From a virus: a stretch of 21,058 bases of DNA. Under the pieces are notes generated by a model. That model was not told where the DNA came from. It saw only the letters and a program-made list of their open reading frames with translations, and did not search any database. The translations under genes and the position numbers were made by a program. Where the stretch lies: IMG/VR virus record IMGVR_UViG_3300046480_000064, positions 1 to 21,058 of that record. One strand, written 5' to 3'. This document shows, piece after piece, positions 4,602 through 19,721 of the stretch (position 1 is its first letter; every line of letters begins with the position of its first letter).

Positions 4602-6904
4602 GCATCAAAAACGAGAGTGTAGGATTTGATCCGCTTCTCCCGGCCAACCGTTGCCACCACTTCAATCTCCTCGTCAAGGACCATATTCCCATCCGGGTCG
4701 GCTGAAAGGGATCGTGTGACAGTATCTTCCTCCACCCAGTCGCCAGTTCCGTAGGCCCGCCCTTCCATCAGTACCTGCAACTCATAGGACCACCAAGGGA
4801 GGGCGTTTATCCAACTACCCCTGAACTTGAACTTGAGCCATACCCACGAGATCCCGGTACGCTGCTGGTAAGCCGCGACAGGGGGGTATATCCCCCACCC
4901 GGACCAGGATGCCCCATTGATAAACCGAGTGATTGCATTATCCTCTGTGTCCTCATTGGATAGATACCGGCCACCAGACGTGCTTGTTAGCCTGAAAGAG
5001 TCACCTTCACTACCACGGCAACATCCTCCATTGAAACCCATCGTGGAAGTGGTCTTATCTAGAATCGGGAAGACGCAGACGCTGTTGGCAACGTGATGTC
5101 CGATGTCTGTTGGGTGCAGAGTTGGGCCATATGAACGGACGATGGTGTCGCTTCCTGTCTTCACTCCCGTCACAGGGTCAATATCAAACTCTCCGTCTTG
5201 CTGAGAATACCGTGTCTGCATGGAACCAGCGCAGTGATCTGTGTCAAAATAATAGTCCCACTCCTCCCTGTCTGCTATCGCTCTCACCGTGAGATATTTA
5301 GCTGGCGGGGTGCTCGGATTGGCAAACTCACTATATCCAATTAGAGAAGGGCTCCCATCCATAGTAGAAAACTCCAGCCCACCGGAGGGGGAAGTGGACT
5401 GGTCAATGAGATCGGCATAATCCCCTGGCCGGGGGATTGAGCCCTGTAGCACAGGTACGAAATCCGCACCAACCATGGCCGCGAGCCCAGGATTGCCTCC
5501 TGTCTGATACGGGATTTGCTGAGCGCCCTCCCAAATGTCGGCGGCGGTGGCGCGCAGGGTGAGATCTACCCCGAGCGCCGGTGCGCCGCCTTGGTAGTAG
5601 ATCGCGAATTTCAATTCCTGCACCAGGAAGATCTTCTCCGACCAGCCGAAACGGGCGTTGTTCACCATCACCGTATCTCCGGCCCGGATGCGCAATGCGG
5701 TCAGTTTGCAGGGCATGGTGGCGACCATGTCCAGCCGCGTCCGCTTTAGCTCGATCGTTGCCAGGCGTTGAGCGGTAAAGGCGCTGGTCGTGAATCCCAA
5801 GTCGAGATCTCGCCAGATCGGAACGCCATCCTCCGCGACGGCCGCCGAGTCTTGCACAGCCGGAAAGTCCGCCGGCTGCCATTTGTCCGCCGGCGAAGCA
5901 AACGTGCCTTTCACTCCATTACAGGTATCGCGCATCGATGCCTTTGTCTGCACATCGATGCCCGCCCGAAGATCGTCTTCATCGAGGGTGATCGCCGGCT
6001 CCGTATATGCGCCGGCGTGGCAAATCCATCTCCCGCCAATATACACGGCCCAACCTGCCATGGACCCGCATAGTTGTTCGATCACTGTGGATGGTTGGAC
6101 GGATAGCTCAAAGCAGCCGTTGCATGTGTACCGTTTCTCGGTCGTCCCCCCTGGCAGACTTACGACTTCATCGCAGACGTTCGCTGCCGCGATGAATGAG
6201 GCATCGTCGATTTCGTCGATGGCGACGCCCATGCCGAAGGTTGCATTCGTCAGATAGTCGCGAACTGCCAGCGCGGGATTGTCGCTCCATGCCGTAGCCT
6301 GGGTGCGCGGATCAAAGACCTTTCGGCCCCGCACGACCGCGGTCGGATTCGGTTGCCCTGCGGGGAATTTCTCCTGACTGAACACCAGGTGCCCCGCGAG
6401 ATAACAGATGCCTCGAAGCCGATGATTGCTCGTCCAATAGTACAAACAGCCGTCGACCAGGTCCGCGTCAGCCACCTGGTCATCGGCCCCGAGATGCTTT
6501 TGGATGGAGCCATAGCCCGCATAGTCCCCCGTGAGATTGCCAACCCAATCGAGCTGCGCCGTGATATCGTTGAAATAGATCTGCTCAATCCCATCACATT
6601 CGTGCCCGGCCAGCGTCATCGCAAATCGCAGGTTTTCGTTGTTCGTGCCATTGCAATGGGCGAAAACCAGCGTTCCAGCCACCCGCGTCTTCCCATAGAT
6701 CACCCTGCGCGGATCGACTGGCCCGCGGCTGAGTTGGAGCGGATTGCCACCGTTGAGCGATCCGGTCGGCAGCTTGCCGCGCAACGCCATGCCGATCCCA
6801 TATGCCGCGGCAGCCTCCATTACAGCCCAGACTACTTTCGCCCAAAAGGACCCTGCTTCTATCCAGGCGGCAAAAGCTTCGATGGCTATTTCGACTTGGG
6901 GCAT
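4598..6904 (-). CDS. J-like tail tip / host-specificity protein
   Basis: 768 residues, shorter than lambda J (over 1100). The N-terminus has a hydrophobic helix (~20-42) followed by the GNPLQLSRGPVDPRRVIYGKTRVAG segment typical of J/megatron-type tip proteins. Conserved hub features continue to about residue 480, including DPRTQATAWSDNPALAVRDYL and GDTVMVNNARFGWSEKIF. Residues from ~490 to the end differ in style: aromatic-rich, cysteine-containing and encoded by lower-GC DNA. They probably form the exchangeable fibre-facing part. It follows the NlpC/P60-like gene after 3 bases and overlaps the next gene by 4. It would sit at the tail tip, joined to the tape measure and hub, and guide receptor binding. 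The start is ATG 6904; no Shine-Dalgarno sequence is visible. Confidence 0.85.
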   Translation of the reverse strand: MPQVEIAIEAFAAWIEAGSFWAKVVWAVMEAAAAYGIGMALRGKLPTGSLNGGNPLQLSRGPVDPRRVIYGKTRVAGTLVFAHCNGTNNENLRFAMTLAGHECDGIEQIYFNDITAQLDWVGNLTGDYAGYGSIQKHLGADDQVADADLVDGCLYYWTSNHRLRGICYLAGHLVFSQEKFPAGQPNPTAVVRGRKVFDPRTQATAWSDNPALAVRDYLTNATFGMGVAIDEIDDASFIAAANVCDEVVSLPGGTTEKRYTCNGCFELSVQPSTVIEQLCGSMAGWAVYIGGRWICHAGAYTEPAITLDEDDLRAGIDVQTKASMRDTCNGVKGTFASPADKWQPADFPAVQDSAAVAEDGVPIWRDLDLGFTTSAFTAQRLATIELKRTRLDMVATMPCKLTALRIRAGDTVMVNNARFGWSEKIFLVQELKFAIYYQGGAPALGVDLTLRATAADIWEGAQQIPYQTGGNPGLAAMVGADFVPVLQGSIPRPGDYADLIDQSTSPSGGLEFSTMDGSPSLIGYSEFANPSTPPAKYLTVRAIADREEWDYYFDTDHCAGSMQTRYSQQDGEFDIDPVTGVKTGSDTIVRSYGPTLHPTDIGHHVANSVCVFPILDKTTSTMGFNGGCCRGSEGDSFRLTSTSGGRYLSNEDTEDNAITRFINGASWSGWGIYPPVAAYQQRTGISWVWLKFKFRGSWINALPWWSYELQVLMEGRAYGTGDWVEEDTVTRSLSADPDGNMVLDEEIEVVATVGREKRIKSYTLVFDA

Positions 6905-6907
6905 CGA

Positions 6908-7306
6908 TCATACCCTCCAGGCGCAGCGACACCGCATGGTCGCTGCGAATGCTAATCCGGCCGGCGCGGCGAAGACCGAGTCCCGACCGATACAGATGCC
7001 CAGTGCTATCCGCCGGCCAGCATCGTAGCTCACGAGATCCCCTCGCTGCGCGAGCGGCAGGTGGATCTCCGAAAGACCCGCCTCGATTGGCAGATGCTCT
7101 ATGCCCCCATGCCGGCGTAAGATCCGGGCCGCTGCCGCTGCTGTTGCATAGATCTCGATATCCGGCATGGGATCCGATCCGGTGATGGCTGTGATCGCCC
7201 CCCGTGCAAATTGGCAGCAGTCGTGGGTGCCCCACTGAAACGGCTGATCCCTCCGCGTTGCGATAAAGGCGGACATTCGGCGCGGCCAATCTGCCAGTCT
7301 CAACAT
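6908..7306 (-). CDS. NlpC/P60-like tail peptidase (DUF6950-like)
   Basis: 132 residues. The segment FQWGTHDCCQFARGAITAITG (residues ~23-43) is the usual catalytic-cysteine signature of small phage NlpC/P60-type proteins, where the first Cys after HD is the likely nucleophile. A later LAQRGDLVSYD matches the conserved GD strand before the catalytic region that contains His in classic members. Here the following segment is ALGICIGRDSVFAAP and no clear catalytic His stands there, so activity is uncertain. Its place between a hub protein and a J-like protein is the same as the GTA gp14 and lambda K positions, where such enzymes cut peptidoglycan stem peptides during DNA entry. The ATG overlaps the previous stop by one base (TGATG). 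Confidence 0.8.
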   Translation of the reverse strand: MLRLADWPRRMSAFIATRRDQPFQWGTHDCCQFARGAITAITGSDPMPDIEIYATAAAAARILRRHGGIEHLPIEAGLSEIHLPLAQRGDLVSYDAGRRIALGICIGRDSVFAAPAGLAFAATMRCRCAWRV

Positions 7307-7926
7307 CAGAATATTTTGGATACCGCTGGGGTCGCGTTGGGGTACCCTGGTACTGCCGCGATAGCCGGAGGATTGACCCCCCAGTAGATGAGCGCGTCGG
7401 CCAGGGTCGCCACATAGGCGAGACCGAGATCGCCAGGGAACAAGCGTTGCTGCTCCTCGTGGGTGTAGCGCAGGTTTCGCGCCCGCTGCAGATCGATCAG
7501 CGCGTTCTCGGCCTGGACCGAGATCGAGCTGGTCTGTCCAGCATCGGAGATCTTTAATGTGTCCATTCTTCCACCGAAGATCTGGTAGGCGTCCACGACC
7601 GCCGGGGTCGTGTTGACGATCGCGAGCCAGAGCCGGCAGCGGCGCCCACGGTATGCGTCCTCGAGGGCGAGCGTGGCGAGGTTCGACGGTATGCCGCTGA
7701 GGGTGAAGGTCAGCCCGGCTGCGCTCGTCTCGATAATCTCATCGATCGGCGTGACGGTCCCCAGAGATCCCGACCCTGCCCAGGTATAGCCGCCCCAGCT
7801 CAGATTTGAGAGGCCCGTCCAGAATCGGACAGGCCCCGCCGCGAAATCGAACTCGGCCAACAACACCAGATTGACGACCGGCTTGGCGATCTCGGTGACG
7901 ATGGTAGATGGCAGATCGCGGCTCAT
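7306..7926 (-). CDS. Baseplate hub-type tail protein (DUF2163-like)
   Basis: 206 residues from ATG 7926. Twelve additional in-frame codons upstream would overlap the previous gene. The sequence is rich in beta strands and contains FAAGPVRFWTGLSNLSWGGY, then the conserved SGIPSNLATLALEDAYRGR, and FGGRMDTLKISDAGQT leading to NALIDLQRARNLRYTHEEQQ. This pattern is common in small tail proteins that precede the NlpC/P60 gene in transposable siphophages and gene transfer agents (GTA gp13 position). It probably forms part of the hub ring joining tail tube and tip. The order distal-tail-like, hub, peptidase, J supports the call. There is a one-base gap after the previous stop. Confidence 0.75.
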   Translation of the reverse strand: MSRDLPSTIVTEIAKPVVNLVLLAEFDFAAGPVRFWTGLSNLSWGGYTWAGSGSLGTVTPIDEIIETSAAGLTFTLSGIPSNLATLALEDAYRGRRCRLWLAIVNTTPAVVDAYQIFGGRMDTLKISDAGQTSSISVQAENALIDLQRARNLRYTHEEQQRLFPGDLGLAYVATLADALIYWGVNPPAIAAVPGYPNATPAVSKIF

Positions 7927-7927
7927 A

Positions 7928-8302
7928 TCAAAGCGCCTCGACAGCTCGGAATGTGAATCCAAAATCGACCGCCAGCCGCGAATCCCAGCCGGGATCCTCG
8001 ATGAGGCGGAATACGTGCGTGCCTGGCGCGGGCGACAGCCCAGGGCAATGCGGCGTCAGGTCGAAATTGAACGTCCCCACCTTGCCCTTCAGATCGAAAA
8101 AGAATTGCGTCCATTGGCCCGCTTCAGCCGGCGCCATGGCCTGCAGCGTCACCTCGATCTCCCATCGCGCACCGGGCCATTGGTAGACCTGCTGGACCAA
8201 CGTGAACGGACTCTCGGCGATGGCCGCGACCGTGTGGCGGAGCACATGGACGTTCTCCGGGAATATGTTGGCCGGCAAACTGAGCGGATAGGTGATCGGC
8301 AT
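7928..8302 (-). CDS. Minor tail protein, candidate distal tail ring component
   Basis: 124 residues. The N-terminus, YPLSLPANIFPENVHVLRHT, and the central WPGARWEIEVTLQAMAPAEA resemble small tail proteins encoded directly after the tape measure gene in Mu-like siphophages. The C-terminus has a beta-rich RLIEDPGWDSRLAVDFGFTF segment. By position it matches the distal tail slot (GTA gp12, lambda M), but at 124 residues it is smaller than most DUF2460-type or Dit proteins. It overlaps the tape measure stop by one base and is followed closely by the hub gene. The role comes mainly from gene order. Confidence 0.7.
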   Translation of the reverse strand: MPITYPLSLPANIFPENVHVLRHTVAAIAESPFTLVQQVYQWPGARWEIEVTLQAMAPAEAGQWTQFFFDLKGKVGTFNFDLTPHCPGLSPAPGTHVFRLIEDPGWDSRLAVDFGFTFRAVEAL

Positions 8303-10290
8303 CAGCGGAAGCCGTCCCGGCGGCGTTTCTGGGCATCGAGCACGGCCGCCTTGCTCGCCTCGACCATCTTGGGCAGGATCGCGAGCACTTCCTCGCGCGA
8401 GACGCCCCCGTTGAATTGGTATGTGAAATGGAATGTGTCTCCCCCGCCAGCCGCGGCAGCATTGCCCGCGACCAGAGCGACGCCGCCGCCCGCCATGGCG
8501 AGCTGCGCCGCGGAACCCGAAATGCTGGTGCGGCCGATCCCCGACAGGGGAATGACCCGGACTAACTCGACTCCGCCGGGGTTGTCACCGACCGTGAAGT
8601 GAGTGGGCCCATGCGTAAGGAAGGATCCGCCGCCGGCGGAAGAGATCTGCATTGTGCTACCAGCGGACCCGAGAGTACTTGCGCCGGCACTGACAGTGCC
8701 GGCGCCGGCGGTCGCCGGAAAGAGACCGAGCACCGCGTTGATGGCCTGGATCATCGCCATCTTCAGGAGGATTTCCGTGAGCATCCGGCCAGCGATGTCC
8801 CCAAGATCCCGGAAGGATTGGCCCCAACTCTGGGTGCCCTTGGTGGCCTCCCAAATGTCGTTCGTAAGGCTTGAAAACGTCTGACCGAGCGTCTGATTCA
8901 GCAGTTGAGAAGCTTGCTCTCCAGCGCTGCCGAGCGATTTCACCCAATCCATCGCGCCGGCCTGCCACCCCTCCGAAGTGGTCATATAGTTCGGATTTCC
9001 GTGCCGGTCATTCACGTGCTGATATTCATCCTGGATCTTGCGAAACGCCTGGGTCTCTCCGCCGGCTGGGTTGATCGCGATCTTTGCTCCCTCTTGCTGC
9101 CATTTCGTAATGTCGGCAAAGAGCTTCCGCTTCTCCTGAAGCTGCGTGAGCTGGGCTTTGGTCAGACCGTTTTCATCCGAGTCAAGCGAGATGTCAGCAT
9201 ACCTATTTGCCATGATTTCGTTCTCGAGATCGACGATTTGCTGGATGATGCCCAATTGCTCCCCCCGCTTTTCGGTCTCAGTTGTGAACCCCTCGCCGGA
9301 GGCAGCCTGATATGCCTGCTGGAGGTATTGCAGGTTCGCCTGCGTGGCTTCCTCGGGGGTCGCCATCACCGGACCCGTCCCCGGGAGTTTCGGGGGAGTG
9401 TCCTTGGATCTTCGGGCCAATCCGTCATAATAGTTGTTATAGGCGTCCATGCCGTAGATCCACGCCGCGGAAGTGGCGCCGAGCCATTGGCCCAATTGCA
9501 TGAACCAACCCACTTCTGTTGTGAGGCCCTTTGCCAAATCCTTTCCGGCGTCGGGATTCTGCTCTAAGATGTCGCCAATTTTCTCGCCTACAGCGATCGC
9601 CATTTCCTGCTTGAATTTCTTAATCTGTTTTTCGGCTTCAGCCAGGCGATTGACCGTATTGTCGGACATGATCCGGCCAGCTTCCTTCTGTGCGTCGGCG
9701 AGTTTACCGTAGCCTTCCGTGGCCAGTTCCTTCAATGCCCCCATCAGCCGGGGTGCATTACGGGCACCGAGTATCTGCACGGCCGAGTCGAAGGCGCGCG
9801 TCTGGTTCGTGCTGCTGAGGATCGCCTTCGCCACCCGCTCAAGCTGCAGCTCCAACGGAAGGCGGCTCAGCTGGTCGACGTCGAGGCCCAGCCGGCGAAA
9901 TTCGGCCGAGGCAGTGCCCGTGCCATTGCGGACTTCATCGAGTTTACCCCGATAGATTGTCAGAGCCATCGTGAGCTGGCCCACGTCGCCACCGGCATCG
10001 CTGATGACGTTTCCCAGTACCTGATATGCTTCGGCCGAAAGGCCGAGATTGGCCGATTGTTCCTTGATCTGGACCGCCATCTGGAACGCGCCGACGACAA
10101 AATCCTTCAGCGAGGTGACCAGCATATCCAGGCCCTTTTGCGCAATGGCGACGCCGAAACCGGTCTTCAATGCCTGGCCAAATCCGCTGGCTTGATCCGC
10201 CGCGTCCTTAATGGCGTCCTTGGTTCGCGTGAGCCCCGACAGCTCATCCCGGATTTGGATCAGGATTTCGAGTGTTGCTTGATCGGACAT
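8302..10290 (-). CDS. Tail tape measure protein
   Basis: 662 residues from ATG 10290 (MSDQATLEILIQIRDELSGL). An alternative TTG start 33 bases upstream reads MPGFPFSQFSA and is less likely. The first 260 residues are helical with alternating Lys/Glu and Ala, typical of a tape measure. A hydrophobic, Gly/Ala-rich stretch (ILLKMAMIQAINAVLGLFPA, followed by many AG/GAS) in the last third probably inserts in the host membrane. The C-terminus ends in FHFTYQFNGG followed by a basic helix, as in lambda H-like proteins. At about 0.15 nm per residue the tail would be about 100 nm (inference). It lies directly after the chaperone G/GT pair, the invariant order in long-tailed siphophages. Confidence 0.9.
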   Translation of the reverse strand: MSDQATLEILIQIRDELSGLTRTKDAIKDAADQASGFGQALKTGFGVAIAQKGLDMLVTSLKDFVVGAFQMAVQIKEQSANLGLSAEAYQVLGNVISDAGGDVGQLTMALTIYRGKLDEVRNGTGTASAEFRRLGLDVDQLSRLPLELQLERVAKAILSSTNQTRAFDSAVQILGARNAPRLMGALKELATEGYGKLADAQKEAGRIMSDNTVNRLAEAEKQIKKFKQEMAIAVGEKIGDILEQNPDAGKDLAKGLTTEVGWFMQLGQWLGATSAAWIYGMDAYNNYYDGLARRSKDTPPKLPGTGPVMATPEEATQANLQYLQQAYQAASGEGFTTETEKRGEQLGIIQQIVDLENEIMANRYADISLDSDENGLTKAQLTQLQEKRKLFADITKWQQEGAKIAINPAGGETQAFRKIQDEYQHVNDRHGNPNYMTTSEGWQAGAMDWVKSLGSAGEQASQLLNQTLGQTFSSLTNDIWEATKGTQSWGQSFRDLGDIAGRMLTEILLKMAMIQAINAVLGLFPATAGAGTVSAGASTLGSAGSTMQISSAGGGSFLTHGPTHFTVGDNPGGVELVRVIPLSGIGRTSISGSAAQLAMAGGGVALVAGNAAAAGGGDTFHFTYQFNGGVSREEVLAILPKMVEASKAAVLDAQKRRRDGFR

Positions 10291-10323
10291 TGCTGAAAAC
10301 TGGGAAAAGGGGAAACCGGGCAA

Positions 10324-11036
10324 CTAGGAACGGCCGGGGGATTGCGTCGCCGCATAGGCCGCTAGGCGTTGGAAGGGTGTCATGGGAGCCTCCCCACTGA
10401 TCTCCCGGATCAGGTCCCGTTGCATTTGCTGTGGCTTGGCGGGGTGCATTGCTGACAACCAGCGGAGCTGCGCGGCGGCATTCAACCGTCGTTGGGCTGC
10501 CATGACTTCCACCAGCCAGGGCAGCGTCTGGTTCAGGATTTCTTCACGGCCGAGTCCGAGGGTGGCAGCGGATTCGGCGCAGAATCGGACAAGTTTTTGA
10601 TCCGGGCTAAGAGCGGCTGAATGATCCGATCGACCATCGGAGAGATTTGCCGGATCGTCGCGTCGAAGAGCGGACCGACCGTCTTTTTGGCGGAGATCTG
10701 GGCGGTCGCCCAGGTCACCGCCGTCGTAAAATTTAGCCGGGTCGCGGCTTCGTGCAGGGCGAAGAAGCTGTCGGCGGTCAGATTGTCGGCCCAGCCTCTC
10801 TGCACCGGGCACATGCCTGCCGGCGCGCCGGCCGGCGAATCCTCGCCCGCCGCCGCGTGCAGATAGGTGCAGAGTTCGACCAGGCCGGCCTGATCTTCCG
10901 CGCGGGCGAGCACGTCGCCCATCGCGCGGATTGGCATGGCACGGATGAAACAGTCCACTTCGGTTCCATCGACGAGTTTCGCCCGGATCATCTCGCCGCC
11001 GAAGAGGATCGTGAGCGGTGAGGAGTTTTCTTTCAT
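10324..11036 (-). CDS. Tail assembly chaperone GT fusion made by a -1 frameshift
   Basis: A second frame continues after the G gene: from about base 10593 to the stop at 10324 it encodes a protein-like sequence (EEILNQTLPWLVEVMAAQRR, HPAKPQQMQRDLI, PMTPFQRLAAYAA). Upstream in that frame the translation is Arg-rich shadow sequence, so no independent gene fits. Reading G to codon 148 and slipping back one base at CAAAAAC (10599-10593) gives a 237-residue fusion: 148 residues of G plus 89 of T. Two such proteins coat the tape measure during tail assembly in lambda-like phages, where the G:GT ratio is set by the shift. Position between tube and tape measure supports this. The shift itself is inferred. 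Confidence 0.75.
10533..11036 (-). CDS. Tail assembly chaperone G-like protein
   Basis: 167 residues, start ATG 11036, stop TGA 10533. The N-terminal part (MIRAKLVDGTEVDCFIRAMPIRAMGDVLAR) is a short beta section typical of small tail chaperones, and the rest is mostly helical, with a Lys-rich C-terminus (DSAVKKS). It lies between the tail tube and tape measure genes, where lambda G lies. Codons 146-148 are ATC AAA AAC and overlap the slippery site that makes the GT form. It acts in the cytoplasm by binding the tape measure and recruiting tube subunits, and is not expected in the virion. No Shine-Dalgarno sequence is visible. Sequence similarity alone would not identify it; the order and the overlapping frame do. 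Confidence 0.75.
   Translation of the reverse strand: MKENSSPLTILFGGEMIRAKLVDGTEVDCFIRAMPIRAMGDVLARAEDQAGLVELCTYLHAAAGEDSPAGAPAGMCPVQRGWADNLTADSFFALHEAATRLNFTTAVTWATAQISAKKTVGPLFDATIRQISPMVDRIIQPLLARIKNLSDSAPNPLPPSDSAVKKS
10571..10599 (-). promoter_or_regulatory. Candidate -1 ribosomal frameshift signal
   Basis: On the coding strand the heptamer C AAA AAC occupies 10599-10593 in the G frame (codons 147-148). Six bases later a small hairpin, GATTC-TGCGCC-GAATC (10586-10571), could stall the ribosome. The stem is only 5 bp and the heptamer is imperfect (first base C, not A), so the shift may be of low efficiency, as expected for GT. Confidence 0.6.
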
Positions 11037-11060
11037 GATGAAATGCTACCGGAAGCACTC

Positions 11061-11939
11061 TCAGTTGCCGGTGATTGCCGCATGGCCGACTGCGCTGAAC
11101 CCGCCAAGATCGGCCATGACGTAAAGGTCGCCATTCGGCGTCCGCGCATAGGTGAAACTCAGCAGGCCGGTCTCATCTGTGACCGCATGGAACACCGCGT
11201 CTGTCGTATCGACCTTGATGAGTGTACCGGCGACGAGCGTCTGGTTGAGAGTGCCAAGGTCGGTCGGGGCACCATAGGATGTGCCCGAAAGGAAGACTTC
11301 CACCGGCACGCGTGCGGCAACGTTGTTGCCCAGCTCGTTCTTGGCCTGTACGGTCACATGGGCGACGCCATCAGGCGTGCCTGTGTTTGCGACCGTGACC
11401 GTGGCGCCTCCGACGACGATATCTGGCGCCGGCTCCCCGTCGATGGGTGTGTATGCGGCGTCCGGGGTGAAGGTGATCGCTCCGTCCTTGCGGGAGCGGA
11501 CCACGAGGGTCAGCTCGGTCGAATTGTCGCCCGAAAAACCCTCTTCGCCTGTGTCGACGAAGATCGTGCATGCGAAATCGTCCGTGCGCAGCGCCACGAC
11601 GGCAGAGGCATCATCGGGGTCACGGATCCATGCCGTGCAGGTGCCCGATTTCGAGCCTGAGAGCGAGCCAAGGAGCGTGATTACTTTCTTCACCTCCTTA
11701 GTCTTGAATTTCAGCAATTCCTTGCGCGCTTTCTCCCAGATCTTATCGGTGAATGCGGGGCCATTGCCCGCGCCGGGCGCCTGACTCTCGCCGATTTCAA
11801 GACCTGGATCATGGCTGACATAGTTGACCAGGAGATTCGTGGTCACGGTGGCGATCGTGAGAGCCAGGATGGATTGGCGACCGGTCACGGCCTTGGTCGT
11901 ATCGTAGGCTGCGGTGGGTAGTGTTGGAGGCGTTGGCAT
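11061..11939 (-). CDS. Major tail tube protein with C-terminal Ig-like domain
   Basis: 292 residues. The first ~175 residues look like a siphophage tube subunit: PTAAYDTTKAVTGRQSILAL, a Lys-rich helix (KARKELLKFKTKEVKKVI), then strands with AWIRDPDDASAVVALRTDDF and TFTPDAAYTPIDGEPAPDI. Residues 179-292 are a separate beta-sandwich domain that decorates the tube surface in many phages. This domain is nearly the same (16 differences in 114 by my alignment) as the end of the decoration-like protein at 14055-15113. One of the few good ribosome sites of the window precedes the start (AAGGA, 6 bases from ATG), consistent with a highly expressed virion protein. The following G/GT and tape measure genes support the call. 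Confidence 0.82.
   Translation of the reverse strand: MPTPPTLPTAAYDTTKAVTGRQSILALTIATVTTNLLVNYVSHDPGLEIGESQAPGAGNGPAFTDKIWEKARKELLKFKTKEVKKVITLLGSLSGSKSGTCTAWIRDPDDASAVVALRTDDFACTIFVDTGEEGFSGDNSTELTLVVRSRKDGAITFTPDAAYTPIDGEPAPDIVVGGATVTVANTGTPDGVAHVTVQAKNELGNNVAARVPVEVFLSGTSYGAPTDLGTLNQTLVAGTLIKVDTTDAVFHAVTDETGLLSFTYARTPNGDLYVMADLGGFSAVGHAAITGN
11064..11405 (-). repeat. Copy 1 of a domain repeated in two virion genes
   Basis: This segment encodes residues 179-292 of the tube protein, from VTVANTGTPDGVAHVTVQAK to the final AAITGN. It matches 14058-14399 at about 98 of 114 residues. Similarity starts sharply at the domain edge and ends at the stop codon. Many third positions differ, so the copy is not recent. 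Confidence 0.9.
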
Positions 11940-11985
11940 GGGAGTTCCTTATTGGCTATTTGCTATTGGCAATTTGAGATTGGAT
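11940..11985 (-). promoter_or_regulatory. AT-rich leader of the tail tube gene with a 14-base spaced repeat
   Basis: 46 bases between genes, strikingly AT-rich for this window. TATTGGC occurs at 11950-11956 and 11964-11970, 14 bases apart. On the coding strand it ends in AAGGAACTCCC before ATG. It may be an unstructured ribosome-loading leader or hold a promoter, but I cannot fit a clear -35/-10 pair. Confidence 0.4.
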
Positions 11986-12519
11986 CTATGGCACGGCCAC
12001 GTGGACAATGCCGGCGAAGGCGATGAGCTCCTGTGCCCAGCATTCTCGGCCCAGATTCGCCGCGTTCGTTCCTTTGGCGTCGGGCGGCTGGATCATCATG
12101 GGATCGCCGGCGCAGGGCTCGAATGTGAGATCCGCATGCCCGGTGAACGGATGGCCGACCAGGTCATCGATCACACGGTCCCCGAGCTCGAGGACGCCGA
12201 TGTTCGCCGGGCCGCCAACCAGGGCGGTCTGATGGATCTTATCCAGTGACTTGTCGGCAATGAGCAACATCAGGCGCACCGTCCGCACACTGGTCAGGTC
12301 CAGACGGGACCGCGTGTTCGCGTGCTGGGTGCCTGCCGGCACGATGAAGCAGACGCGCTGCTCGCTCGCGAACGTCTCCTTCAGCGCCTTGGCCAGGTCA
12401 TTCGCGCCGAAATACCCCACGCGCTCGAATAGCGGATCCGAGCCGACCGCCCCGACAAGCAGCGACTCAAGTCGCGTCTTGAGGAGATCCATCACAGTGA
12501 TGACGTGCAGGAATGCCAT
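11986..12519 (-). CDS. Mu gp37-like protein, candidate tail completion/terminator
   Basis: 177 residues, ATG 12519, one base after the previous stop. The middle has a beta-rich section (TSVRTVRLMLLIADKSLDKI, NIGVLELGDRVIDDL) ending in FEPCAGDPMMIQ, the pattern of small proteins that cap the tail tube. In Mu the genes after the major head protein are gp36 and gp37, and here a gp36-like gene (DUF1320) comes directly before and the tail tube directly after, so this is the gp37/tail-terminator slot. It probably joins the head-tail connector to the tube. The role rests mainly on gene order, and I cannot place it firmly in a named family. Confidence 0.65.
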   Translation of the reverse strand: MAFLHVITVMDLLKTRLESLLVGAVGSDPLFERVGYFGANDLAKALKETFASEQRVCFIVPAGTQHANTRSRLDLTSVRTVRLMLLIADKSLDKIHQTALVGGPANIGVLELGDRVIDDLVGHPFTGHADLTFEPCAGDPMMIQPPDAKGTNAANLGRECWAQELIAFAGIVHVAVP

Positions 12520-12520
12520 G

Positions 12521-12982
12521 TCAGATAGACAGCCGGCCCGTCGCTGAATGCGTCCGGGTGCGCTCAGTGATGACCGATGCCGAGGGCTGCTTGCGGTTGA
12601 GATCCGGAGATAGGGGCAGTTCTCCCGTCACGATCTTGTCCAGCAGGCCCGGCTGGCCTCCTTGCTGCCCCGCCGTGCCACGGACGGCCGTCGCACGGGC
12701 CAACCATGGGTTGGAGTCGCCGAAGAATCCCTTGCGCTGGTAAAGCAGTTCGGCAGCCAGCACGAAGCCCGCATTGAGTAGCACCTGCGGCAGTGGATCC
12801 ACTAGCGGCAATGCGTACCGCTGGCCGATCTTGCCATCGATCTCCTGTCCGACCGCCGCGACGATCTGCTGCCAGATATCCATATCCGGCGTCCCGGCGC
12901 CCGTGTCATCGAGCAGCTGGCTGGTGATCTCGTCTGGGAGTCCGGCGATGATCTGGTCGAAGGTGATATAGGCGGTGGCCAT
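12521..12982 (-). CDS. DUF1320 / Mu gp36-like head-tail connector protein
   Basis: 153 residues from ATG 12982; a TTG four codons upstream is a poorer start. Typical DUF1320 features are present: an N-terminal YITFDQIIAGLPDEITSQLL, a central AAVGQEIDGKIGQRYALPL with the conserved arginine-tyrosine-PL motif, then PQVLLNAGFVLAAELLYQRK. In Mu this protein (gp36, gpJ) is needed for head completion or joining. The all-helical fold resembles connector adaptors that bind under the portal. The C-terminus (SPDLNRKQPSASVITERTR) is extended and probably flexible. It is the first gene after the intrinsic terminator that follows the capsid gene. Confidence 0.85.
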   Translation of the reverse strand: MATAYITFDQIIAGLPDEITSQLLDDTGAGTPDMDIWQQIVAAVGQEIDGKIGQRYALPLVDPLPQVLLNAGFVLAAELLYQRKGFFGDSNPWLARATAVRGTAGQQGGQPGLLDKIVTGELPLSPDLNRKQPSASVITERTRTHSATGRLSI

Positions 12983-12990
12983 TGGCTTTG

Positions 12991-13029
12991 ACAAAAGCGC
13001 CCCCGGCGGCGGACGCCGGCCGGGGGCGC
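12991..13029 (-). terminator. Intrinsic terminator after the major capsid gene
   Basis: Bases 12997-13007 and 13019-13029 form a perfect 11 bp GC-rich stem (GCGCCCCCGGC with its complement) around an 11-base loop. On the - strand it is followed directly by TTTT (12996-12993) and GT. It lies 28 bases after the capsid stop and overlaps the start region of the next gene. It could reduce read-through so that head genes outnumber downstream transcripts. Confidence 0.85.
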
Positions 13030-13057
13030 GAGTAGCGCATGTTGGCTGGTACCGAAA

Positions 13058-13999
13058 TCAGGCGGCGTCGGCCCCGGTGGATCCCCAGGCGAGTTCCGGC
13101 AGGCCGTAGCCGGCGGCATAGCGGCCGTAGGCTTGGTAAAGGAACTCGTGGTTCTTGAAGACGTGGTCGCTGGTCGGCGTATCGAGGGCGGTGAGCACCG
13201 GTGCCACTTCCTGCTGGTGGATGAGCGGCTTCATCGGCCACCCGGTCTCCAGGAGGAACCAGGCATCGGAGCCCCCGAGTTGCGGCCAGACCATCAAACT
13301 CGCCGTCCCCTTATTGACGTTCGTGACCGCGGCCGACGCGACATTCTCAGTGCCCGCCTTGTTCATCGCGATCTGCTGGATGAAGTCGGCCTGCAAGATC
13401 TGGCGGCCGAGCGCCTCGTTCTTTGCCGAGACGACCAAGAGCAATCTGAGCCCCAGATTGAGCGGGCGCCCTTCGGCGTTTTTGCGGCTTTTGATGTCGG
13501 CGCGCGCCGTCTCGAAATTGGTCGAACTGAGTTTCTTCGTGCCCTTGTTGTCGAAGGTGGTCTTCCCTTTCTGCGGCTCATGCCCGGTGTCGAAGAAATT
13601 CTTGCCCGTATAGCATTTCGTGGTGAAGCCGGCCAGCAGCAGGTTGGCAATCAGCTCGTCGGGATGCTGCTTTGCGGCGAGGCCCAAGGCGCTGAACCGC
13701 GGGTTGTACAAGCCATAGGCATTCCGCTCGATGTCGGCCTGGCGGACGCCGATCGCGTCATAGTACTCGTCGTTGACGATCGAGTACCTGTGCGCGGCAA
13801 GATTCGCCACAGTGATCTCGCCCAAAAGCTTCTTCATGCCCGGAAAGCTGCCGAGCCAGGCATAAACCTCTTCGGCTGCGCTGGACGGAACCAGGGTGGC
13901 GACCTGGTCCCACATCGCCGCGCCGGCCTGGTATGCCTCGTTGAAGATCACGCGATAGGCGCGGAAGAGTTCGGTCAGGGAGGATTGATTGATTTGCAT
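13058..13999 (-). CDS. Major capsid protein, Mu gpT-like
   Basis: 313 residues, close to Mu gpT (about 305). The N-terminus (MQINQSSLTELFRAYRVIFNEAY) with a nearby AAMWDQVATLVPSSAAEEVYAWLG segment is characteristic of the family. Other conserved parts are GVRQADIERNAYGLYNPRFSALG, YTGKNFFDTGHEPQKG, and WPMKPLIHQQEVAPVLTAL with DHVFKNHEFLYQAYGRYAAGYGLPELA near the end. It builds the HK97-fold shell. It follows the protease/scaffold and decoration genes, and a strong terminator comes after it. There is no Shine-Dalgarno sequence: the bases before ATG are pyrimidine-rich (CTTCTCTCCTC). Confidence 0.92.
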   Translation of the reverse strand: MQINQSSLTELFRAYRVIFNEAYQAGAAMWDQVATLVPSSAAEEVYAWLGSFPGMKKLLGEITVANLAAHRYSIVNDEYYDAIGVRQADIERNAYGLYNPRFSALGLAAKQHPDELIANLLLAGFTTKCYTGKNFFDTGHEPQKGKTTFDNKGTKKLSSTNFETARADIKSRKNAEGRPLNLGLRLLLVVSAKNEALGRQILQADFIQQIAMNKAGTENVASAAVTNVNKGTASLMVWPQLGGSDAWFLLETGWPMKPLIHQQEVAPVLTALDTPTSDHVFKNHEFLYQAYGRYAAGYGLPELAWGSTGADAA

Positions 14000-14054
14000 G
14001 AGGAGAGAAGCTTAGGGCTGAGGGTGAGAGGTAAGGTGGACCGGGCGTTGATCG

Positions 14055-15113
14055 TCAGTTTCCGGTGATGGCCGCGTTCCCGACCGCGCAGATCCCGCCG
14101 AGCTGGGCCATGACATAGAGGTCGCCGTTAGGTGATCGTGCATAGGTGAAGCTGAGGAGGCCCGTCGCATCGGTGACCGCGCGGAACTCGGCGTCGGTGG
14201 TGTCGACCTTGATCAGGCTGCCAGCCACCAGGGTCTGGTTGAGGGTGCCGAGATCGGCCGGCGCGCCATAAGAGGTCGCGGAGAGGAACACGGCGACCGG
14301 AACGCGGGCCGCGACGTTGTTGCCCTGAGCGTCCTTGGCCTGCACGGTCACATGGGCGACGCCGTCCGGGGTGCCTGTGTTGGCGACCGTGACAACGGCG
14401 CTCGCAACGATCATCTGCGCGACGGCGGCGGCAAGCTTGGCAGCCGTAATCGCGCCGGCGCCGACCGTGCCCACGACCGGGAGGTGATAGGTGGAGTCCA
14501 CCCAGACACCATCGCTGTCGATCGCGATCGCCAGGCCGGCTTTCACGGCATTGCTGTTGCTGTGGGCAACGGTGTGATCGTCCTCGACGTAGATCACGGT
14601 GTTCAGATCGGCGGTGACAACCGCGCTGCCCGTGCTATTCGCCCATTTGAAGCAGCCGCGCTTCACATTGACCATGAGATCGCCCGGCGCGCCCGCTGAA
14701 TTGTCCACATCCGCCTCGATCCGGCCGAAAGCGACCAGGCCGGTCGTATCGGCTGCCGGCACGACATAGCCGCTCGCGTTGAGCGCTGCCATGGTACCAG
14801 CGTAGAGTTTCGTCGAGGCAGCGACAGGATAGGCGGCCACGGCGCCTGCGCGCTCGGGCGTGTCGATCGGCTCGTCCGAAGAAAGACCCAGCGCCAGAGG
14901 GGCGACGCACCAGAGTTCGCCGATCCAGCCATGGATCGCCATCAAGGCGTGCGACAAACCGATCTTGAAGACCATGCCGACGTTCTCGAAAAACAAGGTG
15001 GCGCTGTTGGTCGGCGGCGATCGGTCGACGCCCAGCGGCGGGGCGAGGAAGGCAGTGAACAGGCCCAGGATGAAGATCAGCGGGGCGAGGAAGGCAGTGA
15101 ACAGCGTTTTCAT
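14055..15113 (-). CDS. Head decoration-like protein with hydrophobic N-terminus and C-terminal Ig-like domain
   Basis: 352 residues in three parts. Residues ~1-78 are hydrophobic, with a 14-residue tandem repeat (FTAFLAPLIFILGL, FTAFLAPPLGV) and further apolar stretches. This is unusual for a virion decoration protein and looks like a signal or membrane segment. Residues ~80-210 (PVAASTKLYAGTMAALNASG, RIEADVDNSAGAPGDLMVNV, FKWANSTG) match the layout of Mu-type capsid decoration/DUF2190-like proteins encoded between protease and capsid. Residues 239-352 are the Ig-like domain shared with the tail tube protein. The N-terminal part could be a separate or fused gene, or translation may begin at one of the internal Met codons (such as the one in GMVFKIGL). 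Virion role: likely, by position. Confidence 0.75.
   Translation of the reverse strand: MKTLFTAFLAPLIFILGLFTAFLAPPLGVDRSPPTNSATLFFENVGMVFKIGLSHALMAIHGWIGELWCVAPLALGLSSDEPIDTPERAGAVAAYPVAASTKLYAGTMAALNASGYVVPAADTTGLVAFGRIEADVDNSAGAPGDLMVNVKRGCFKWANSTGSAVVTADLNTVIYVEDDHTVAHSNSNAVKAGLAIAIDSDGVWVDSTYHLPVVGTVGAGAITAAKLAAAVAQMIVASAVVTVANTGTPDGVAHVTVQAKDAQGNNVAARVPVAVFLSATSYGAPADLGTLNQTLVAGSLIKVDTTDAEFRAVTDATGLLSFTYARSPNGDLYVMAQLGGICAVGNAAITGN
14058..14399 (-). repeat. Copy 2 of a domain repeated in two virion genes
   Basis: Residues 239-352 of the decoration-like protein; partner of 11064-11405. Both copies sit at the extreme C-terminus of their proteins and end in AAITGN. Confidence 0.9.
15038..15104. 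repeat. 25-base direct repeat, 42-base period
   Basis: The same 25 bases (from GCGGGGCGAGG to GTGAACAG) occur at 15038-15062 and 15080-15104. In the protein this gives FTAFLAP twice, 14 residues apart. It appears to be a small in-frame tandem duplication at the start of the decoration-like gene. Confidence 0.85.
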
Positions 15114-15173: not shown

Positions 15174-15617
15174 TCAGACGGCCTTGTTGTGCTTGTCCCA
15201 CAGCTCTTTCGTGATGCCCATGGTCTTCATGATCTCATCACGGACGGCATTGCCCTGGCTGATGCCGCTGCTGTGGGTCTTGATGCCTTCCACCGTGCGC
15301 TTTTCCATCGGGACCTGGTCGGCCGGAAGTTCTTCGACCAATTTCTTGAAGGCGTCGACCGGCAGTTCCATGGCCGATTGCGGGATGATCTTGCCGGCGG
15401 AGAGCGCGCGGGCCGCGATGCTTTCGCGCTCGGATTTCTCACTGGCCTTCTTCAGGGCTTCGATTTCCCCGGTGAGCTTGAGGATGTCGGCAGTGTTCGT
15501 CTTGACGGCGCTGTCGGGTTCGTCCGCTTCTTTCTTCACGGCTGCGGTGATCGCCGCATCGGTCGCCGTATCGGGGAGATCGAGCACGGACAAAAGCAGT
15601 TTCTTGTAATCGAGCAT
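15174..15617 (-). CDS. Putative scaffold made from an internal start in the protease gene
   Basis: ATG 15617 lies in frame in the protease gene and begins MLDYKKLLLSVLDLPDTATD, which resembles the usual N-terminus of separate scaffold proteins. The 147-residue product is highly charged and helical, with a Lys/Glu-rich coiled coil (LTGEIEALKKASEKSERESI). In Mu and lambda the scaffold (Z, Nu3) is made from a nested start in the protease gene. No clear ribosome site is seen, so this is inferred from layout. Confidence 0.45.
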   Translation of the reverse strand: MLDYKKLLLSVLDLPDTATDAAITAAVKKEADEPDSAVKTNTADILKLTGEIEALKKASEKSERESIAARALSAGKIIPQSAMELPVDAFKKLVEELPADQVPMEKRTVEGIKTHSSGISQGNAVRDEIMKTMGITKELWDKHNKAV

Positions 15618-16130
15618 GGCGGGAGTGGTTGGTTGTTCGTCGGAAAATAGAGAGAGAAGCGGATCACCGGAGTTGAGCTGCAGGGGCAGATCATCGGTCG
15701 CGCCATGGCGGGCCAGGGCGACGCTGTGCACGAAGACGACTTCGTTTGCCTTGTTCACGAGAATCGCCGGGCTCAGGTCGTTGAAGTGTCCGCCCTTCGC
15801 GGCCTCACTGCCCTCCGGGGTCCAGCGATCGGCCGTATGCAGATAGATCCCCTCGCCAGGCACGACTTCGAGAGGCCCATAGGCGGCACGTTTGCGCGGC
15901 TCTTTCTCCGCCTTGAATGTCGTGCTACCAGGGACCGTGTTGTGTTCGAAATCCAGATCGACCGTATCGAAATTGACGGCGTGGAGGTTCTTCGGCAGCT
16001 CGCGGACGGTCGTCTCGTTGACGACGTAGTCGCCATTCACTGACTTGTTCGTGCCCCATTTGCCGACCAGAAGCCGCTTGGGGAGATCGGGTCCGGAGGC
16101 GAAATTCAGGCGGAAGGTGCGGAGCAACAT
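15174..16130 (-). CDS. Mu I-like prohead protease with C-terminal scaffold region
   Basis: 318 residues from ATG 16130; a GTG seven codons upstream (16151) is an alternative. The N-terminal ~165 residues are the protease: KWGTNKSVNGDYVVNETT, VDLDFEHNTVPGST, and DLSPAILVNKANEVVFVHSVALARHGATDDLPLQL, which is the family's conserved FSPA...VALT-like region. The last ~140 residues are charged and helical and look like a scaffold. The protease cuts scaffold and itself during capsid maturation, inside the prohead. It lies in the Mu order between gpG-like and capsid genes. Confidence 0.85.
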   Translation of the reverse strand: MLLRTFRLNFASGPDLPKRLLVGKWGTNKSVNGDYVVNETTVRELPKNLHAVNFDTVDLDFEHNTVPGSTTFKAEKEPRKRAAYGPLEVVPGEGIYLHTADRWTPEGSEAAKGGHFNDLSPAILVNKANEVVFVHSVALARHGATDDLPLQLNSGDPLLSLFSDEQPTTPAMLDYKKLLLSVLDLPDTATDAAITAAVKKEADEPDSAVKTNTADILKLTGEIEALKKASEKSERESIAARALSAGKIIPQSAMELPVDAFKKLVEELPADQVPMEKRTVEGIKTHSSGISQGNAVRDEIMKTMGITKELWDKHNKAV

Positions 16131-16230
16131 GGCGCGTTTGAAAGACGCCACTGTGCCGCAAATGCACCTTGCCTGGCTATCGTCGCTGGCGCGCCTGGCG
16201 ACGGTGGGGAGGTTTCCGCGCGCCCCGTTT

Positions 16231-16261
16231 TGTAGGAAGCCCGCTCGCGGGCGATCCTACA
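16231..16261. repeat. REP-like palindrome at the end of the gpG-like gene
   Basis: 31 bases: arms TGTAGGA/TCCTACA (7 bp) then GCCCGC/GCGGGC (6 bp) with a TC loop and a small internal mismatch. It resembles the REP elements moved by RAYT transposases in many bacterial chromosomes. Its CTA (16257-16259) is the TAG stop of the gpG-like gene. There is no U run on the - strand after it, so it is a poor terminator. The 16152-16230 stretch beside it is non-coding. Confidence 0.65.
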
Positions 16262-16733
16262 TCAGCGCATTCAGCGCCCGCAGCGCTGCTGCACGCACAC
16301 TTTTCACCGCGAGCGGAGTCAGTATGTTGCTGTCCGGCGTGCCCCAAATCGGAAGCATCGGCCGCGGTGGAATCCGCCCGTCCTTCGTGCCGAACTGGTG
16401 GAGCGATGCGAGCGACAGCCCGCCGGGCGTGGCCCGGTCGCTGCCAACGCGGACGGTGTCATTGGTCGTTTCAAACACCCGATATGATCGCCAAAGAAGG
16501 CCATGCCGCTTCAGGATTGCCGTCGAAGTTCCCTCTTTGATCTTCTGGAGAAGGGTCGATTCCTTGAGCGGAGCCCAGGGCGAGGCGCGCACGCTTGGGT
16601 CGTTGAAACTGCGCGTCGCGAGCGATACGACCGCTAGGCCGGCCGCCTCCGATATCGACTCGGTATTCATCAGCTTGGACTGCAGCCGATCGAGCGCGAC
16701 TGTCGCCAGATCCTTGATGATGAGTTCGGCCAT
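16257..16733 (-). CDS. Phage virion morphogenesis protein, Mu gpG-like
   Basis: 158 residues, nearly the usual length. Conserved features: WAPLKESTLLQKIKEG, LKRHGLLWRSYRVFETTNDTVRVGSD, and SLASLHQFGTKDGRIPPRPMLPIWG, the HQFG...IPxRPxL pattern of the Phage_tail_S/virion morphogenesis family. It acts in joining tail to head. It follows the 47-residue small gene, in the Mu order F, G, protease. The stop codon lies inside a REP-like palindrome, so its natural C-terminus may have been replaced. No Shine-Dalgarno sequence is visible. Confidence 0.85.
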   Translation of the reverse strand: MAELIIKDLATVALDRLQSKLMNTESISEAAGLAVVSLATRSFNDPSVRASPWAPLKESTLLQKIKEGTSTAILKRHGLLWRSYRVFETTNDTVRVGSDRATPGGLSLASLHQFGTKDGRIPPRPMLPIWGTPDSNILTPLAVKSVRAAALRALNALM

Positions 16734-16765: not shown

Positions 16766-16909
16766 TTAAGCGTCGCCGGACTTTGCTGGCGCAGCGCTTA
16801 GGTCAACGTCGGGCGTCGACTCGACCACCATCACCTCCGAGGCCTCACGCGTCCAGCCGGCCGCGATGAGCTTGTCGACTTCCAGCATCTGTTCTTCAGT
16901 GAGTTTCAT
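16766..16909 (-). CDS. Small 47-residue protein after the MuF gene
   Basis: ATG 16909 overlaps the MuF-like stop in an ATGA (16906-16909); stop TAA 16768-16766. Sequence begins MKLTEEQMLEVDKLIAAGWT and ends PAKSGDA. It is acidic, with one predicted helix and a disordered tail. The 4-base overlap and position support translation. It reads like a small UBA-like or coupling peptide, but I recognise no family. Confidence 0.6.
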   Translation of the reverse strand: MKLTEEQMLEVDKLIAAGWTREASEVMVVESTPDVDLSAAPAKSGDA

Positions 16910-18465
16910 TTGATCCATCCTTTTGCGCGGAAGAGTTTATCGATCGCCGTGGCCACGGGTGCGAAATCAGCGTCCGACCATTGGATGAGTGTGCCGATTT
17001 CCGGGATATCGCGAATCAAATTGAGCTGCTTGAGCATCTCCGCATCGCCGCTGCGCGTCGCGATGTATTGCGCATAGGAGCGCGCCCAGATCTCCAGTGG
17101 CTTGAGATAGTAGGCGGCATTGTAGATCGGCTTGCCGTCCACTATGCCCTTATCGATCGCCTTGATCGCGGCCGTCGCATCCACAGCCGCGCGCCATTCG
17201 GCAAATGCGGGATCGCTCTTCGATGCGAACGCGCCTGCCTCGCCGAGCGCCTGGTAATCGAGCAGATGCCCGATCTCATGCGCTGCCGTCATCCTTGGCC
17301 AGGGGCTATCGGCACTCACGCCGATGCGATCCTGCCCTGCGAAGAACGTGCCGTTGGCGCCTCTGCCCGCGGCCGCATCGACAGTGATCTTCGGCAGCGT
17401 GCCGTCATCGTGCACCTTGTCGATCGTCGCGATCGTCGCCGTGATGTCCGCAACATGCGCTGCCTTGGTCGTCACCTTGAGCGCGGCACTGACTGCCGTC
17501 TTCTTGGCTTCTTCCGATCTGGCATCCGTTTTCCCGGCCGCGGCCGCAGCCGCAATGACCGGAGGCTTTGGCGCCGGCGTCGCCGCAGGCTTCGGCGCGA
17601 CCGTCACGGCCGGCTTGCCCGCGCCGTTGAGCCAATCCCACACGTTGCCCTGCCCGGATCCGAGATCGGTGGATTGCGCCCAGGCCGTAAAGGTTGCCCA
17701 TGTTTCGGGATCATACCGTTTGGCCAGGTCCGCGACATTGATGTCCATCGTCGTCTGGTTCCACCGCCCCGTGCCATCTGTCGTGGTCACGTTGAACTCG
17801 CGCGGCATGCCGTTGTCGCCGGGAAGCGCGCGGACCAGGCGGCCGCTGGTCTCGATGTCGTGCAGCCGGTCGCCATCGAGCACGCGCTGTTCTTCCGGCA
17901 GCGCATCGGCGTCATCCAGCTGTATCTGGTCAACATCCTCCGGACTGAGCGCCACCTTGATGCAGCGACATCCCCATTCGCGTTTCCGATCCCAGAAGGG
18001 AGAGTCGGCCGGCAATACCAGTTGATCGAGGGCGGCATGAGTGTCGCGCACGCGTTCGTCTTCCATGGTTTGGTACTGCCAATAGGGAAACGCTGCCTGC
18101 TGGCGGTCCATGACAGCGGTGGACGCGGCATCATATGCCGCAAACCCGTGCGTCCGGAGCAGCAACTCGGCCCGGGATTCGCCCCGGCCGACTTCCTCAG
18201 TGTCCAGGTAAGGCGAGATCTGCCCCGCGATGTCCGCCTTCACCGCATCCCAATCCGCCCCCTGCGGCAGGTCTGCAATCCGGTCGCGAACTGCCTGCAG
18301 CACGTTTGCGGCCTCGATACCGGTGACCGTGAACGCCCGGGCCTGGAGATCGGGCAGCATGCCGTTGAAGATGTCGCGGCTGACGACCGGTTTCGACGCG
18401 ATGAAGTCCGCGGCATCTGTGTTCGGGACCGGCGTTGTCAGAAATGTTGTCGGGAAGTCAGGCAT
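16906..18465 (-). CDS. MuF-like minor head protein fused to a zincin-like metallopeptidase domain
   Basis: 519 residues. Residues ~30-172 are the MuF core, ending in YWQYQTMEDERVRDTHAALD and the REWGCRCIKVAL strand with the conserved CxC (166, 168). It joins portal to scaffold and enters the host with DNA in related phages. An Ala/Pro/Lys linker (~282-312) leads to a C-terminal domain with AAHEIGHLLDYQALG: HEIGH at 396-400, a fitting HExxH zinc site with Asp403, and Glu458 in PLEIWARSYAQYI as a possible third ligand. MuF proteins often carry toxin or peptidase tails. Targets are unknown; it could cut phage scaffold or a host protein. ATG 18465 follows the previous gene by 10 bases. Confidence 0.88.
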   Translation of the reverse strand: MPDFPTTFLTTPVPNTDAADFIASKPVVSRDIFNGMLPDLQARAFTVTGIEAANVLQAVRDRIADLPQGADWDAVKADIAGQISPYLDTEEVGRGESRAELLLRTHGFAAYDAASTAVMDRQQAAFPYWQYQTMEDERVRDTHAALDQLVLPADSPFWDRKREWGCRCIKVALSPEDVDQIQLDDADALPEEQRVLDGDRLHDIETSGRLVRALPGDNGMPREFNVTTTDGTGRWNQTTMDINVADLAKRYDPETWATFTAWAQSTDLGSGQGNVWDWLNGAGKPAVTVAPKPAATPAPKPPVIAAAAAAGKTDARSEEAKKTAVSAALKVTTKAAHVADITATIATIDKVHDDGTLPKITVDAAAGRGANGTFFAGQDRIGVSADSPWPRMTAAHEIGHLLDYQALGEAGAFASKSDPAFAEWRAAVDATAAIKAIDKGIVDGKPIYNAAYYLKPLEIWARSYAQYIATRSGDAEMLKQLNLIRDIPEIGTLIQWSDADFAPVATAIDKLFRAKGWIK

Positions 18466-18777: not shown

Positions 18778-19209
18778 TCAGAGAGCTTGTCTGTAGCGTT
18801 CGCGATTGCTGAAGCGCGCTCCGGGCTCGGTCCGATCCCAAAACTCCGGATCGCCGGCGACGTCCGCCTCATGTTTTAGGTACGAGAAATAGTCGAACTG
18901 CATCACCCCGGGCGTCACATTCATGCCAGTGACGAACTTCGCCCGGATGAGTCGTGCCATGCCCTGTTCGCTGATGGCGATGCCGAGTCGCTTCAGATTC
19001 CCGCGCGCCACCGTAAACCAACGGGGGCAGATCCGTGCGACCGGGCGGAACGTTCCGCCGCCGGCCGGAACGAGTTCCGTGATTGCCACCGTGTCGATAT
19101 TGTCCGGGGGAATCGACACATAGGTGTGCCCGGGCGTGATTTCCACGGTCGTGCCTGGTCGGGCTCCCACGACGGAGATGCGGAGAGGTGAGGATGGGGT
19201 TGTGTTCAT
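18778..19209 (-). CDS. Unknown protein in the accessory block
   Basis: 143 residues, start overlapping the PolX-like stop by 4 bases (19206-19209). A beta-rich N-terminal part (ISVVGARPGTTVEITPGHTY, IDTVAITELVPAGGGTF) is followed by a helix-rich half: WFTVARGNLKRLGIAISEQGMARLIRAKFV, then QFDYFSYLKHEADVAGDPEFW and a basic end. The middle resembles an HTH-like DNA-binding segment that could recognise DNA or an adaptor, but the fit is weak. I do not recognise a family. Neighbours suggest it works with or alongside the methyltransferase and nucleotidyltransferase. Confidence 0.65.
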   Translation of the reverse strand: MNTTPSSPLRISVVGARPGTTVEITPGHTYVSIPPDNIDTVAITELVPAGGGTFRPVARICPRWFTVARGNLKRLGIAISEQGMARLIRAKFVTGMNVTPGVMQFDYFSYLKHEADVAGDPEFWDRTEPGARFSNRERYRQAL

Positions 19210-19721
19210 GTTTCGCGATCTTCCGGGCGGACAAATTCAAGATTTAGCTCCCGGAAGAAATCTTCTTCGGTCTCGGTCACGACGGCGGTCCGGCCAAGCA
19301 GCTTTTGCAGCCCGGCATGGGGATTCCAATGCAGTCCTACCTCCCGGGCGCGCCGGGCGATCATGACGTTGAACTCTGCCGAGCCTGTGCGGCAGACGAG
19401 CAGCGTCGCCCAATTGGCCGGAGTCACATTGCCGAACAGGTCCGCGGATGCCGCGTGGGCGATCCACAAATCAAGCTGGCCTCCGCCCTGGAGTTCAAAG
19501 AGGCGGTATTGCTCGCCCGTCTTCGTGCAGCGCGTCCGCCGTTCGCAGCGCTCGATCAAATCATGCAGGCCAGCCTCGCCCTTGGGCAGACAGACAACGT
19601 CGATGTCGCCGACCTCCGGCCGCTGCCGGCGGATCGAGCCGGCGATTTCGCAGTGCTCGCAAAACGGCGCAAGATCGTCGCGGATCCGACCGGCCAGGCG
19701 TTGTGCAGTGGCGAGCTTCAT
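19206..19721 (-). CDS. Stand-alone DNA polymerase X/beta-type nucleotidyltransferase
   Basis: 171 residues. Clear family X palm motif: GSIRRQRPEVGDIDVV with Gly28-Ser29 and the two catalytic Asp residues 39 and 41; QLDLWIA supplies the third acid, Asp84. The TGSAEFNVMIARRAREVG (112-129) and later DFFRELNLEFVRPEDR segments match the thumb-side part of PolX. The 8-kDa lyase and PHP domains are absent, so it is about half the size of bacterial PolX. It could add nucleotides to DNA or RNA ends or repair gaps, perhaps at phage DNA ends. It overlaps both neighbours by 4 bases (ATGA), next to a winged-helix gene and a DNA methyltransferase. Catalytic residues look intact. Confidence 0.85.
   Translation of the reverse strand: MKLATAQRLAGRIRDDLAPFCEHCEIAGSIRRQRPEVGDIDVVCLPKGEAGLHDLIERCERRTRCTKTGEQYRLFELQGGGQLDLWIAHAASADLFGNVTPANWATLLVCRTGSAEFNVMIARRAREVGLHWNPHAGLQKLLGRTAVVTETEEDFFRELNLEFVRPEDRET

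Follow-up and report, generated by a model that had tools for sequence, protein, structure and literature searches.

The purpose of Ig-like domains on phages has been a question since 2006. The locus described here raises it in a specific form, namely why one such domain should form the C-terminus of two virion proteins, one of the head and one probably of the tail. The window, by which is meant the whole stretch of DNA that was analysed, is a record of 21,058 bases from an uncultured bacterial virus in which the virion genes lie on the − strand, with head genes that are Mu-like and tail genes of the siphophage type. Its head and tail genes, with the two copies of the domain, are as follows.

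8302..10323 (−): tape measure protein, 673 aa (phrog_9483, E 4.1e-11)
10324..11036 (−): tail assembly chaperone candidate (from reading frames)
11061..11402 (−): Ig-like domain, tail copy; last 113 residues and stop codon of the putative tail tube protein (86 % amino acid identity to the head copy)
11403..11939 (−): putative tail tube (major tail) protein, residues 1-179 (from gene order)
11986..12519 (−): candidate neck or tail-terminator protein of 177 aa (from position alone)
12521..12994 (−): head–tail adaptor, Mu gp36-like (PF07030, E 6.8e-11; phrog_195)
13058..13999 (−): major capsid protein of the Mu gpT family (PF10124, E 4.3e-67; phrog_371)
14055..14396 (−): Ig-like domain, head copy; last 113 residues and stop codon of the decoration-like protein
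14397..14864 (−): phrog_1731 part and linker of the decoration-like head protein (phrog_1731, E 1.3e-35)
14865..15113 (−): hydrophobic N-terminal extension of the decoration ORF, true start codon uncertain (from the ORF list and sequence)
15174..16151 (−): Mu I-like head protease (PF10123, E 2.1e-19)
16257-16733 (−): gpG-like head protein
16906-18465 (−): gpF-like minor head protein with a C-terminal HEIGH motif (TAAHEIGHLLD)

The chaperone candidate consists of a frame at 10533-11036 overlapped by a −1 frame that stays open to 10324, an arrangement like that of lambda G/GT, and no classical slippery site was identified within it. Further tail genes in the window encode distal tail, minor tail L-like, DUF6950 and J-like proteins. 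Several other features were recorded in passing. The HEIGH motif of the gpF-like protein suggests that this head protein is fused to a zinc metallopeptidase; a large tail fibre or spike protein (1129-4407, −) carries a GDSL/SGNH esterase domain (PF13472, E 5e-16) and is possibly a glycan deacylase; and a protein at 19206-19721 (−) matches the DNA polymerase beta thumb (PF14791, E 2.9e-11) and, weakly, the palm (PF14792, E 0.0045). On the opposite strand, a fragment at 85-435 (+) resembles motif A of family B DNA polymerases (FDVASLYPSLLLS), with a stop soon after, and has no Pfam match.

The original prediction held that the last 114 residues of the two proteins differ at only 16 positions and that the remainder of the proteins is unrelated, and both statements were borne out. 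The copies share 97 of 113 domain residues, while the N-terminal parts and linkers are without similarity. Similarity begins at the domain boundary and ends at the stop codon, so that the repeated unit is one domain plus its stop. The two copies are offset by 2994 bp; the predicted span of 11064-14399 holds both and also takes in the genes between them. A within-contig all-against-all comparison of ORFs, made without composition correction, gave mostly spurious-frame matches and was discarded. DNA identity of the copies was 78 % over 300 nt and their profile match had an E value of about 1e-64, so the pair is due neither to assembly duplication nor to chance; an assembly artefact is ruled out by the 22 % of bases at which the copies differ.

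Comparison of the 113 codons identified 46 synonymous and 16 nonsynonymous codon differences, and the 72 base differences were distributed 8/9/55 over the three codon positions. By the NG86 method dS was 1.09, an imprecise value as are all those near or above 1, dN was 0.084 and dN/dS was 0.077 (bootstrap 95 % 0.036–0.141). A ratio near 1, which the original prediction had named as the result that would count against it, is excluded, and both domain copies are under strong purifying selection. The further claim that the pair is maintained by selection holds for each copy taken singly, whereas a low ratio alone is no proof of selection for sameness; conservation of the domain could reflect constraint on the fold alone. 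The copies are not a fresh duplication, because dS is above 1.

A domain model (AF2) built from three sequences, with one good model among five, was a nine-strand beta-sandwich with a pLDDT of 73.4. Viral matches to this model in Foldseek were uncharacterised phage proteins (best E 9e-7, TM 0.76), and its Ig-like matches included bacterial domains (GH2 galactosidase, cohesin and intimin) as well as titin Ig (best PDB E 5.7e-4). At the sequence level, the Pfam Big_1 match was sub-threshold (E 0.002, 18.6 bits against a cut-off of 34.9), the domain fell in none of the curated Pfam Ig-like families (Big_1, Big_2, I-set and FN3), and no sequence relative was found among solved structures. As modelled, the domain is Ig-like, in line with phage surface domains of the kind treated by Fraser et al. 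(2006), and lies outside the curated families.

One other relative of the domain was found, 51 % identical and located in a prophage of Verrucomicrobium sp. BvORR034, where it forms the C-terminus of an unrelated 245-aa head-cluster protein beside the capsid gene. No match was obtained in 50,697 phage records, and a search of 388 Verrucomicrobiota genomes returned the known BvORR034 copy alone. A degenerate pattern for the C-terminal GNAAITGN matched 48 contigs, which were unrelated by profile except for the known Verrucomicrobium prophage, and a loop-pattern search for more members yielded one doubtful partial match (L163). VANTGTPDG and the loop YGAPxDLGTL are the stretches kept in the Verrucomicrobium copy despite its distance, as would be expected for a shared functional face. 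Adjoining the Ig-carrying protein of this prophage is a 280-aa protein (L003:10671-11513) judged by eye to resemble a LamG-like lectin fold, with no Pfam or PHROG match.

How the two copies arose bears on what their likeness means. The sequences suggest that they have been long apart and have changed at similar rates: at the 16 differing sites the Verrucomicrobium relative agrees with the head copy at five and with the tail copy at three. The pair is most simply explained by a duplication after which the copies came under constraint. A second account, which we regard as a real but lesser possibility, is that the copies arrived independently, or that mosaic exchange united head and tail modules in each of which the cassette was present beforehand; ordinary selection on each copy would then suffice, and sameness would not be required. 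In third-position GC each copy resembles its own carrier (0.726 against 0.726 for the tail copy and 0.850 against 0.816 for the head copy), the dS of 1.09 shows long separation, and the Verrucomicrobium prophage has the cassette on a third, unrelated protein, all of which favour separate arrivals. However, the GC difference is modest (26 against 12 third-position changes, P 0.03), and with one other relative in the searched collections, two arrivals of a rare domain at 86 % identity are less likely than duplication. This account concerns origin and is compatible with a role in adhesion. Gene conversion, in which recombination homogenises the copies, is very unlikely. The first 21 codons do contain fewer synonymous differences (5 of 20) than the rest (41 of 77), a weak hint of conversion with a P value of 0.04 that is uncorrected for the choice of segment, but 46 silent differences over most of the domain and a dS above 1 leave little room for it.

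The head carrier is encoded by an ORF at 14055-15113 (−), between the protease and capsid genes. PHROG annotates phrog_1731 as 'virion structural protein, head and packaging', and the phrog_1731 part is 44 % identical to RC1 gp15, which ends without an Ig domain. The related decoration proteins of RC1, vB_ThpS-P1 and several contigs all end in the same way, so the Ig domain is an add-on. In several related decoration proteins (L014, L015, L016 and L028) other extensions take the place of the Ig domain, which suggests that the phrog_1731 protein may be a carrier of exchangeable surface modules. The start of the decoration-like ORF (MKTLFTAFLAPLIFILGLFTAFLAPPLG...) is hydrophobic with repeated CTGTTCACTGCCTTCCTCGCCCCG, which is odd for a capsid protein; signal-peptide-like N-terminal segments were also seen in two decoration relatives (L014:6833-7717 and L015:6815-7747).

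The tail carrier is a 292-aa protein (ORF 11061-11939, −). Its position in the order adaptor, neck, 292-aa protein, chaperone and tape measure is that found in JBD30 and Roseobacter phage CRP-406, and the tail-gene order of the window also matches Roseobacter phage CRP-6. By gene order alone, the protein is likely to be the tail tube. The 'tail tube' label of the original prediction therefore fits the gene order and lacks a family match: none was found in Pfam, PHROGs, PDB sequences or the candidate tail proteins compared. The tail proteins of RC1, vB_ThpS-P1, CRP-6 and CRP-406 were considered as homologues and showed no similarity. No relatives of the 292-aa protein were found, and a single-sequence model of the whole protein had a pLDDT of 37.

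A parallel was detected in contig L011, the head of which is related. Here a phrog_1731-family protein (5843-6919) has two Bxb1-type modules inserted in loops and is adjoined by a plain decoration paralogue (6923-7387), while a third Bxb1-type module, 47-48 % identical, is present in a putative tail protein (9832-11220). This contig appears to be an independent case of one module, different from that of the window, placed on the head and on a probable tail protein.

Head and tail proteins that have a surface module in common are on record for Bxb1, LeBron, Wildcat, Douge and A2. The reading of the original prediction is partly supported, in that one Ig-like module is present on a head-surface protein and a probable tail protein, but the idea had been published before. 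C-terminal extensions common to capsid and tail proteins were described in Bxb1, Wildcat and LeBron, with an estimate of more than 750 Ig-like copies per virion (PMC3029335). As in the window, these phages have one C-terminal surface module on a head and a tail major protein, and in LeBron and Wildcat the module is Ig-like. In these three it is borne on the head by the major capsid protein, in the window by a decoration-like protein. Related Big_2-like domains also occur on or next to the head and tail major proteins of Lactobacillus phage A2 and Enterococcus phage 9181. The A2 copies are 39 % identical and are made by frameshift (PMC5009743). The precedent pairs were taken from papers and one search, and are few and not sampled; measured alike, the known pairs were 39-58 % identical with dN/dS of 0.25-0.6. 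The Bxb1 pair was identical at 37 of 92 residues (dN/dS 0.60), the LeBron pair at 36 of 73 (0.56) and the 9181 pair at 49 of 84 (0.25), in comparison with 97 of 113 (0.077) for the pair of the window. The window pair is the most alike of the pairs measured here.

Other phages place Ig-like domains on head or tail in different ways. In T5 they occur on the decoration protein pb10 and the tail tube protein pb6 (PMC5292684, PMC8718954), a placement like that proposed for the window; unlike the window pair, the pb10 and pb6 domains showed no significant sequence match. Display on head and tail does not need sameness, because T5 uses unrelated Ig domains on both. JBD30 is like the window in its gpT-type capsid, its gene order and an Ig-like decoration domain on the tail tube, and the structure of its major tail protein gp44, obtained by cryo-EM, has an outward Ig-like domain (PMC11445458). 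The gp44 domain is internal whereas that of the window is C-terminal, and JBD30 is without a phrog_1731 gene between protease and capsid. The JBD30 minor capsid protein gp39 was ruled out as a decoration homologue as its gene lies 3′ of the capsid gene, the phrog_1731 position being vacant. In Douge, 919 Ig-like domains per virion are located on the MCP and TTP, and the purified Ig-like domains of both proteins label M. smegmatis and not E. coli (PMC13033339). Douge resembles the window in having Ig-like domains on head and, in the window probably, tail tube, with the capsid protein as its head carrier. The evidence for host-cell binding is that of Douge, and it gives the general idea of the original prediction an experimental footing in another phage.

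By analogy with Douge, a role in weak, multivalent contact is proposed, and we lean towards a reading in which the domain is a weak adhesion module that coats the particle and aids reversible attachment. On this reading, an in-frame fusion has placed an Ig-like adhesion cassette at the exposed C-terminal end of the decoration protein and of the tail tube protein, both abundant in the virion, so that head and tail would bear hundreds of copies. For the phage of the window we infer the presence of the domains on the virion surface, their number, their ligand and their part in adsorption; a total of 500-600 copies per virion is plausible if a T=7 head is fully decorated and the tail has the length set by the 673-aa tape measure. 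The coat would make weak, reversible, multivalent surface contacts, most simply with the host cell envelope, and these contacts may keep the virion lying alongside the cell until its tail tip meets the receptor. The need to preserve one binding face in both would keep the copies alike.

It is unlikely that the domain mainly stabilises the virion, through contacts with its neighbours in the capsid lattice and from one tail ring to the next, with surface binding secondary. Strong purifying selection fits a structural role, contacts within a ring are made by the Ig domain of lambda gpV, the loss of which lowers activity about 100-fold (PMC8718954), and the Ig-like domains of the Douge MCP take part in capsomere contacts (PMC13033339). 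Against this, the capsid and tail lattices differ, so that one nearly unchanged domain would hardly clamp both, and the decoration proteins of relatives manage without it. We think it still less probable that selection acts on sameness as such, either through one binding face for a single ligand bound by head and tail at once, with the virion flat on a cell or polymer, or through domains that bind each other and couple tail to head or virion to virion.

A pair so alike on two carriers offers a clean natural test of what Ig-like domains do on phages. The ligand of head and tail alike could be read out with a single recombinant domain, and removal of either copy would separate the role of the head from that of the tail. 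The finding also suggests that the Mu-like decoration protein may serve as a carrier for exchangeable surface modules.
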